From Bacteroidales bacterium Phil6 (GTDB lineage Bacteria; Bacteroidota; Bacteroidia; Bacteroidales; F082), in contig NWBN01000032.1 in the NCBI GenBank assembly GCA_002633315.1, positions 4,050 to 68,049 on the forward strand: a stretch of 64,000 bases of DNA, given 5' to 3'. Below the pieces are notes generated by a model, which did not search any database, had not been told where the DNA came from, and saw nothing but the letters and a program-made list of their open reading frames with translations. Position 1 is the stretch's first letter, and every line of letters starts with the position of its first letter. Both the position numbers and the translations under genes were made by a program. This document shows positions 52,187 to 54,927 of this stretch, piece after piece.

Positions 52187-52289
52187 ATTTTTGTCTCGTT
52201 GTTGGTTAATAATTGTTTTCTCTGTTCTTTCAAAGTACAAAAATACTAATCTTTTTTCAAATATGCGTAAAAACTTTAATATTTCTAAC

Positions 52290-52320: not shown

Positions 52321-54927
52321 ATGAAAAAAATAATCATGTGTTTATCTGTTTTTGGAATGCTAACTGCTTGTTCTAATCCCAAGAAACAAGCTGATAGTTG
52401 TCAAAATCAAGATTTTAAGTATCTTGTCGATGAGTTCGCAGATATTAAAATCATGCGTTATCAAATTCCTGAATGGGACGGTTTGACGCTTCAGCAAAAA
52501 GAATACCTGTACTATTTGGGTGAGGCGGCAAAATGCGGTCGTGATATCATCGCTGACCAGAATTTTAAGTATAACCTTACAATTCGTAAGACTTTGGAGG
52601 CAATACTTGAATCTTATAACGGTAACCGCGCTTGCGAAGATTACAATAACTTCGTCGTTTATGCCAAGCGCGTATTCTTTAGCAACGGGATTCATCATCA
52701 TTATGCGGAGGATAAATTCTTTCCGGAAATTTCTCAGGAATATTTTGCAGAACTTGTGAAAAATTCCGATACATCTTTACTGCCTCTTGCTAAAAATGAG
52801 ACGGTAGATGATTTCCTGGCATTTATTACTCCTGTTATTTTTGATAAAGATTTGTACAAAACAAGAAGAAGCAATGAAGATGACATCATTGTAAATTCTT
52901 CTGTCAATATGTATAAGGGCTTTATTACCAAACAGGAGGTGGAAAAGTTTTATGATGAACAAAGGAATCCTGCCGATGCACAACCAATTTCCTATGGTTT
53001 GAACAGTCGGCTTGTTAAAGAAAACGGTGTATTGAAAGAGGAGGTTTACAAGGTGGACGGTCTTTACGGTCCTGCTTTGCAAAAGATAGTGTATTGGCTC
53101 GAAAAAGCTAACGCAGTGGCGGAAAATGATGCTCAAAAAAAATATACCGAGCTTTTGATTGACTATTATAAAACAGGAGATCTTAAGACATGGGACGAAT
53201 ATAATATCGCATGGGTGTTGGATTCTGTTTCAAGAATAGATTTTGTCAACGGTTTTATTGAGGATTATGGTGATCCGATGGGAATGAAGGCAACTTGGGA
53301 AGCTGTAGTTAACTTTAAAGATCTTGACGCTACAAAACGTTCTTCGGTTATAAGTCAGAATGCTCAATGGTTTGAGGATAATTCTCCTGTTGATGAGCGC
53401 TTTAAGAAAAAAGAATGTAAAGGGGTGAGTGCCAAAGGTATCATAGTGACGACTTTGGCCGGTGATTGTTTCCCTTCTCCTCCCATAGGAATAAATTTGC
53501 CTAATGCCGATTGGATTCGTCGTGACTATGGCTCTAAATCGGTGACAATAACCAATCTGATGGACGCTTACGACAAGGCAGCCAACGAATCTCCCAAGAG
53601 TGTGCTCTCTGAATTTGCTTATTCTCAGGAAGAAATAGATATTTGTAAAAAATATGGAGCCCATTCAGATGTGGTTCATACCGACTTGCATGAATGTCTC
53701 GGACATGGCTCCGGCCAACTGCTGCCAACTACATTGCCTAATTCTTTGAAAGAATACAGCTCTACTCTCGAAGAGGCTCGTGCCGACTTGTTCGGTCTTT
53801 ATTATTGTGCCGACCCAAAACTTGTGGAACTTGGCATCATGCCTGACTCAGAATGTTATAAGGCTGAATACTACGGCTTTATACGCAATGGCTTGTTGAG
53901 TCAACTCGCCCGTATCGAACTTGGAAAGAATGTCACGGAATCTCACATGCAAGACCGTAAACTCATTTCTGAATGGTGCTACGAACACGGAAAGAAAGAT
54001 AATGTCATCGAGAAAAAAGTCAAAGACGGAAAGACATATTTCGTCATTAACGATTTTGAAAAGTTACGTGGTTTATTTGGCGAACTTCTTGCCGAGATTC
54101 AACGTATCAAGTCGGAAGGCGATTATGAGGCTGGTAAAAATCTTGTGGAGACTTATGCTGTTAAAATCGATCCGGTGCTTCATAAGGAAGTGAAAGAACG
54201 TTATGATGCTCTCAACCTTAAACCTTATGGAGGCTTTATCAATCCTGACATAGTACCTGTTGTCAAAAATGATAAAGTCGTGGATTATAAAGTGGAATAT
54301 CCTGATGACTTTTTGCAACAACATCTCGATTATGGCGAGAAGTATTCTTTCCTTAAAGAAAATCATCAGGCTCCTGTCCATATTGTGGTTGACATGCTTT
54401 ATGACTTTATCGACGGCTCCATGGCATGCGGCAATGCTGAAAATGCCGTGGCGGAAGTGATTGAATATATCAATGCTCATCCTGATGAGAAAGTCGTTTA
54501 TGTATGTGATTCTCACCCTTCAGACCATTCTTCCTTTATTAATGAAGGAGGCATTTGGCCGTCTCATTGTGTTCAAGGTACACGAGGTGCTGAAATACAT
54601 AAAAGTTTTTATACAGATGTCATCAATCCATCAAACCGTCCTGACGAAAATAGGAATATTTTTAGAAAAGGACGTACCCGCAACGAAGAACAATACTCCG
54701 GTTTCGAATCAGTTGACATAAATGAAGTGTTACTTAAAGATTGTGTAGGCAAAGATTTGATAATAAGCGGTATAGCAACAGAGTATTGTGTTAAGAATAC
54801 ATTGTTGGAGTTCTTAAATGCCGGATCTAATATTGAATTGCTCGTTAATGGTTTGGGTTATGTTGACAAAAATGGTCATGTGGAGACTTTAAAAGAGTTG
54901 GAAAATAAAGTTACCTTTATAGAATAA
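52321..54927 (+). CDS. Lipoprotein fusing dipeptidyl peptidase III (M49) to a nicotinamidase domain
   Basis: 868 residues from ATG 52321, where a lipoprotein signal (MKKIIMCLSVFGMLTAC, Cys 17) begins; the longer upstream frame is not favoured. Residues to about 670 are an M49 peptidase. H457-E-C-L-G-H462 and E485 (in EEARAD) provide zinc binding with the same 28-residue spacing I recall for Bacteroides DPP III. Residues about 685-868 are an isochorismatase-fold nicotinamidase with its expected centre intact: triad D691, K783, C823 (GIATEYCVKN), metal ligands D730, H732, H749, plus H736. Expected activities are release of dipeptides from oligopeptides and deamidation of nicotinamide to nicotinate, here outside the cytoplasm. 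No frameshift is seen in the join. Monocistronic, with a strong terminator downstream. Confidence 0.93.
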   Translation: MKKIIMCLSVFGMLTACSNPKKQADSCQNQDFKYLVDEFADIKIMRYQIPEWDGLTLQQKEYLYYLGEAAKCGRDIIADQNFKYNLTIRKTLEAILESYNGNRACEDYNNFVVYAKRVFFSNGIHHHYAEDKFFPEISQEYFAELVKNSDTSLLPLAKNETVDDFLAFITPVIFDKDLYKTRRSNEDDIIVNSSVNMYKGFITKQEVEKFYDEQRNPADAQPISYGLNSRLVKENGVLKEEVYKVDGLYGPALQKIVYWLEKANAVAENDAQKKYTELLIDYYKTGDLKTWDEYNIAWVLDSVSRIDFVNGFIEDYGDPMGMKATWEAVVNFKDLDATKRSSVISQNAQWFEDNSPVDERFKKKECKGVSAKGIIVTTLAGDCFPSPPIGINLPNADWIRRDYGSKSVTITNLMDAYDKAANESPKSVLSEFAYSQEEIDICKKYGAHSDVVHTDLHECLGHGSGQLLPTTLPNSLKEYSSTLEEARADLFGLYYCADPKLVELGIMPDSECYKAEYYGFIRNGLLSQLARIELGKNVTESHMQDRKLISEWCYEHGKKDNVIEKKVKDGKTYFVINDFEKLRGLFGELLAEIQRIKSEGDYEAGKNLVETYAVKIDPVLHKEVKERYDALNLKPYGGFINPDIVPVVKNDKVVDYKVEYPDDFLQQHLDYGEKYSFLKENHQAPVHIVVDMLYDFIDGSMACGNAENAVAEVIEYINAHPDEKVVYVCDSHPSDHSSFINEGGIWPSHCVQGTRGAEIHKSFYTDVINPSNRPDENRNIFRKGRTRNEEQYSGFESVDINEVLLKDCVGKDLIISGIATEYCVKNTLLEFLNAGSNIELLVNGLGYVDKNGHVETLKELENKVTFIE

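Follow-up and report, generated by a model that had tools for sequence, protein, structure and literature searches.

The window, a 64,000-nucleotide stretch of DNA from Bacteroidales bacterium Phil6, carries at positions 52321–54927 a gene that appears to join a peptidase to a nicotinamidase behind an export signal. Nicotinamidase is usually regarded as intracellular. The questions at this locus are whether the fusion is real, what its second domain does and on which side of the inner membrane it acts. ORF reading gave a single plus-strand frame of 868 residues with no interruption, organized as follows.

52321–54927, + strand: CDS, lipoprotein signal, M49 dipeptidyl peptidase III (DPP III) and nicotinamidase, 868 aa (ORF, Pfam, phmmer)
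52321–52371, + strand: lipoprotein signal peptide, with lipobox LTAC (C17) at its end (sequence; C17 unchanged across 30 fused relatives)
52411–54300, + strand: M49 DPP III domain, about residues 31–660, up to ~680 (Pfam, phmmer; dN/dS 0.054)
53689–53706, + strand: zinc motif HECLGH, residues 457–462 (sequence; invariant in the alignment of 30)
53770–53787, + strand: second zinc motif EEARAD, residues 484–489, ligand E485 (sequence, alignment)
54301–54372, + strand: junction, residues 661–684 (DPP III similarity stops at ~679; dN/dS 0.071)
54373–54924, + strand: predicted nicotinamidase domain, about residues 685–868 (Pfam, phmmer, AF2 pLDDT 97.1, Z 25.1 to 1ilw)
54391–54393, + strand: catalytic Asp D691 (residue position, alignment)
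54508–54528, + strand: metal site D730, H732, H736 (residue position, alignment)
54565–54567, + strand: metal ligand H749 (residue position, alignment)
54667–54669, + strand: catalytic Lys K783 (residue position, alignment)
54772–54789, + strand: motif IATEYC with nucleophile C823, residues 818–823 (residue position, alignment)

Within the 868-aa protein, Pfam matched Peptidase_M49 (E 2.9e-48) and Isochorismatase PF00857 (E 4.2e-13). A phmmer search against solved structures aligned Bacteroides thetaiotaomicron DPP III (5na7) with residues 13–679 (816 bits) and matched the Pyrococcus horikoshii nicotinamidase 1ilw (5e-21), with the nicotinamidase matches spanning residues 687–862. ORF, Pfam and phmmer thus bear out the preliminary description of an M49 peptidase and a nicotinamidase in one frame; the lipoprotein signal that it placed in front has a lipobox, LTAC17, and the residues that it named (H457, E458, H462, E485, D691, D730, H732, H736, H749, K783 and C823) all lie where it placed them. 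The peptidase half carries the M49 hallmarks HEXXGH, as HECLGH, and EE-x-R-A-(E/D), as EEARAD, together with full-length similarity to a characterised family member (5na7). A longer frame of 904 aa, with a TTG start at 52213, is less likely because the ATG-start M1 and K2 are invariant in 30 relatives.

Both enzyme families are already known, and the peptidase half has close counterparts. The whole of it aligns with B. thetaiotaomicron DPP III (5na6, 5na7; PMC5667867), which shares HECLGH and a lipobox-like N-terminus but lacks a nicotinamidase domain and stops at ~680 residues. In Porphyromonas gingivalis, DPP III (886 aa; PMC5708649) likewise combines M49 with an extra C-terminal domain, which, consistent with the different extension mentioned in the preliminary description, is an ARM-repeat AlkD-like fold unrelated to nicotinamidase, with no repair activity detected (PMC5708649). 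Three longer DPP III frames (982 aa in G213, 849 in G108 and 1148 in G420) were rejected as other fusions, DPP III ending at ~680 residues in the regions read; the 982-aa frame of G213 is an in-frame extension upstream of DPP III.

A genus-wide search recovered the fusion in 37 of 99 Candidatus Limimorpha genomes, as 35 intact copies and two contig fragments, the other copies being 72–80% identical to the query. According to the sequence titles, the genus comes from the rumen, the hindgut of ruminants and horse faeces. Outside the genus, samples of 295 Bacteroidales and 395 Bacteroidota genomes yielded no copy. An alignment of 30 fused proteins shows no variation in the zinc ligands, the nicotinamidase triad, its metal site or lipobox C17, and the gene order flanking the fusion is common to relatives. 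Median dN/dS was 0.054 for M49 and 0.069 for the nicotinamidase, with 0.071 at the junction between them; the low values in both domains indicate strong purifying selection on each. Although most genomes examined are MAGs, an assembly or annotation artefact, which the preliminary description had named as a possible undoing of its claim, is virtually excluded: the same junction recurs in 37 genomes that were assembled independently, in different studies and from different hosts, and every full-length copy has an intact frame.

The C-terminal domain shares its predicted fold, catalytic triad and metal site with archaeal 1ilw and mycobacterial 3pl1, nicotinamidases that are cytosolic and consist of a single domain. 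Its AF2 model, built from 58 diverse relatives, reached a pLDDT of 97.1, and structural comparison was made with this domain model only: 1ilw gave Z 25.1 (rmsd 1.6 over 170), Leishmania PnC1 and Mycobacterium tuberculosis PncA (3pl1) each gave Z 24.0, and maleamate amidase, biuret hydrolase and RutB (Z about 19–21), as well as N-carbamoylsarcosine amidase, ranked below the nicotinamidases. For the whole protein, AlphaFold gave a poor model (pLDDT 52) because its alignment contained near relatives only. The Asp-Lys-Cys triad of PncA is present and invariant (D691, K783, C823), as is the Asp-His-(His)-His metal site (D730, H732, H736, H749), and the ring-pocket residues of M. tuberculosis PncA, F13 and W68, have F696 and W746 as their aligned counterparts. 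The Gln of the DxQxDF motif, typical of PncA and not known to be required, is replaced by Leu (DMLYDF, L693) here and throughout the subfamily. When the C-terminal residues were compared with PncA and isochorismatase profiles, as had been proposed, PF00857 matched at 4.2e-13, and the NCBIfam nicotinamidase/pyrazinamidase equivalog NF008623 scored 59.3 bits (E 4.5e-16), below its cut-off of 174. Judged by these sequence features, the domain is a divergent subfamily of nicotinamidase.

The nearest non-fusion relatives of this domain, found in many Bacteroidales MAGs, are of two types. The first is the C-terminal domain of ~690-aa proteins whose N-terminal part is nicotinate phosphoribosyltransferase (PncB; NF006695 and TIGR01513 both above cut-off). 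The second comprises ~200-aa genes without a signal, which have pncB directly upstream at 16 of 17 loci; the 17th ends at a contig edge. In the PncA tree, the DPP III-fused domains form one clade (support 100) within the PncB-linked subfamily (99), and the PncBs of the fused lineage likewise form one clade (100) among such PncBs in the PncB tree. Computation thus shows that the DPP III-fused domain and the PncB-linked nicotinamidases share common descent. The C-terminal nicotinamidase of the PncB-PncA fusions is homologous and about 48–54% identical to the fused domain, but its partner is nicotinate phosphoribosyltransferase and it has no signal peptide; direct descent from such a fusion was unsupported, since the tree puts the fused domain closer to the operon form that stands alone (support 89). 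The PncB-PncA fusions themselves, seen at L125:3504-5543 and ~29 similar loci (L124-L164) of rumen and anaerobic Bacteroidales, let a single protein cover two successive steps of NAD salvage.

Within the genus, the fusion and the genes of niacin salvage are distributed reciprocally. A stand-alone nicotinamidase was present in 0 of 37 fused versus 50 of 52 unfused genomes, a TIGR01513-type PncB in 34 of 37 fused versus 0 of 52 unfused genomes, and an E. coli-type PncB in 47 of 52 unfused versus 0 of 37 fused genomes. The two mutually exclusive PncB types differ in length (L171-L176 and L187-L216; ~400 aa for the E. coli-like and ~490 aa for the TIGR01513-like form), and the latter, in fused genomes, stops where a nicotinamidase would start. 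The stand-alone nicotinamidases of the unfused lineage (L068-L088, e.g. L075:1372-2067) bear lipoprotein signals of their own where read. They resemble the fused domain in being predicted exported nicotinamidases and are mutually exclusive with it, but they are single-domain proteins of a separate clade (99), 24–29% identical, with a DPQ motif. On sequence comparison, the own-signal and the peptidase-fused nicotinamidase are two distantly related arrangements. G410 encodes an additional 167-aa isochorismatase-like hydrolase; its similarity to RutB, biuret hydrolase and PncA is only distant, and it was left out of the nicotinamidase counts.

Fused and unfused states track the tree, which requires about one change between them; they represent one evolutionary contrast and not 89 independent data points. 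Because the co-occurrence follows two clades, its Fisher p of 5e-23 is not a real probability and was set aside as evidence. One switch in evolution may underlie both Limimorpha branches. In the DPP III tree, plain DPP III nests inside fused DPP III (95/88), and a single clade of fused DPP III was not rejected (AU p = 0.28), which makes the tree compatible with gain or with later loss of the fusion.

Together, sequence, fold, PncB linkage and the replacement of the stand-alone nicotinamidase point to nicotinamide as the substrate. The preliminary description had also suggested that the substrate of the second domain might be an amide produced by the peptidase. That the domain acts on another amide, for instance one that the DPP III half frees from peptides, is compatible with its divergence, the Q-to-L change in DxQ, the low score to the PncA equivalog and the many substrates of the isochorismatase-like superfamily. 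We nevertheless regard it as very unlikely: the domain retains the residues aligned with F13 and W68 as well as its metal site and triad, the best solved matches are nicotinamidases ahead of N-carbamoylsarcosine amidase, maleamate amidase, biuret hydrolase and RutB, members of the subfamily adjoin pncB or are fused to it, the fusion and a stand-alone nicotinamidase exclude each other, and nothing was found that links the two activities.

NadA was absent from all 99 Limimorpha genomes, with controls positive in 12 of 14; the genus thus appears unable to make NAD de novo and obliged to scavenge niacin. The window's own genome, with a listed completeness of 100% and contamination of 0.21%, contains one PF00857 protein, the fusion, and no other nicotinamidase was detected in it. 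Throughout the fused branch, too, no route from nicotinamide to NAD was detected other than the fusion. PnuC had no match there either; about 90% of relatives have one. Among the routes searched, niacin salvage through the fused domain and PncB was the only NAD route detected, and no nicotinate importer was identified.

We consider it probable that the protein is a bifunctional exported lipoprotein, combining DPP III with a periplasmic nicotinamidase that feeds PncB and was moved away from a PncB partner. In the scheme that we infer, as regards enzymatic activity, periplasmic location, nicotinate uptake and the history of the move alike, nicotinamide would enter the periplasm, where the C-terminal half of the lipoprotein would hydrolyse it to nicotinate and ammonia. 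The nicotinate would then cross the inner membrane into the cytosol, where a separate PncB would convert it into NaMN, while the N-terminal DPP III half would trim dipeptides off oligopeptides independently of the nicotinamidase. A PncB-linked nicotinamidase would have moved onto DPP III, which would have supplied the export signal; the sister lineage would instead use a nicotinamidase that bears its own lipoprotein signal.

This reading does not require the two activities to be coupled, and localization is the simplest advantage of the fusion. True coupling, in which the fusion brings the scavenging of peptides and of niacin to one place or either domain regulates its partner, would agree with the retention of the join across the lineage and with the constrained junction (dN/dS 0.071), but nothing was found linking the substrates and the two enzymes run apart in related lineages, so we hold it to be improbable. 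The coupling of nicotinamide deamidation to peptide uptake in the earlier interpretation accordingly found no support; its other part, a complete, selectively constrained and extracytoplasmic nicotinamidase acting in NAD salvage, is one that we likewise infer. A second, more distant M49 protein with a 552-aa frame (G000:C22:60317-60991, L002) is also encoded in the window's genome.

The extracytoplasmic location is predicted from the N-terminus of the fused protein, MKKIIMCLSVFGMLTAC, a lipoprotein signal. A lipobox was found in every fused protein read, and loss of the signal in none. Surface-exposed lipoproteins of Bacteroidota carry K-(D/E)2 or QA-(D/E)2 soon after the Cys (PMC5080379); this motif was found after the Cys in 0 of 30 fused proteins, which favors the periplasmic face over the cell surface. 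Since the stand-alone nicotinamidases read also have lipoprotein signals, both Limimorpha lineages would be predicted to deamidate outside the inner membrane.

The main reason for doubt is that Bacteroidota DPP III has been described as cytosolic (PMC5667867, PMC5708649), although B. thetaiotaomicron DPP III likewise has a lipobox-like N-terminus. A real fusion with an active nicotinamidase could then be a largely cytosolic protein, in effect an ordinary cytosolic PncA tethered to a peptidase. Besides these reports, the absence of a signal from PncB, the next enzyme, and the loss of the signal in an unfused DPP III subclade (L230, L231, L232 and L233), whose members start directly at the M49 domain, speak for this possibility. 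We think it unlikely, however, given the invariant lipobox Cys of the fused proteins and the lipoboxes of the sister-lineage stand-alone nicotinamidases read. The view that PncA is normally a cytoplasmic single-domain enzyme needs correcting for Bacteroidales, where PncB-PncA fusions and stand-alone lipoprotein forms also occur.

For the genus as a whole, we lean towards a nicotinamidase step outside the inner membrane, carried out either by a nicotinamidase with its own signal or by a PncB-linked cytosolic one relocated onto an exported peptidase. If so, a vitamin-conversion step would have moved lineage-wide to an exposed compartment in apparent NAD auxotrophs, and a metabolic domain would have changed cell compartment by leaving its pathway partner for an unrelated exported protein. 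Nicotinamide of the rumen and gut would then be deamidated in that exposed compartment, and the nicotinate could be shared with the host or neighbors. Microbial nicotinamidase controls the share of oral nicotinamide that reaches host NAD by the deamidated route (PMC7762504).

In the open-licence literature searched, no paper named DPP III and nicotinamidase together, none on an exported nicotinamidase was found under the phrases tried, and nothing specific was found on rumen deamidation or PncB-PncA fusions. Nor did that literature yield the combination, its lineage-wide fixation, the predicted export of a nicotinamidase or its proposed relocation from PncB. Signal-bearing nicotinamidases similar to those of the unfused lineage were also observed in two other Bacteroidales families (L252, L271).
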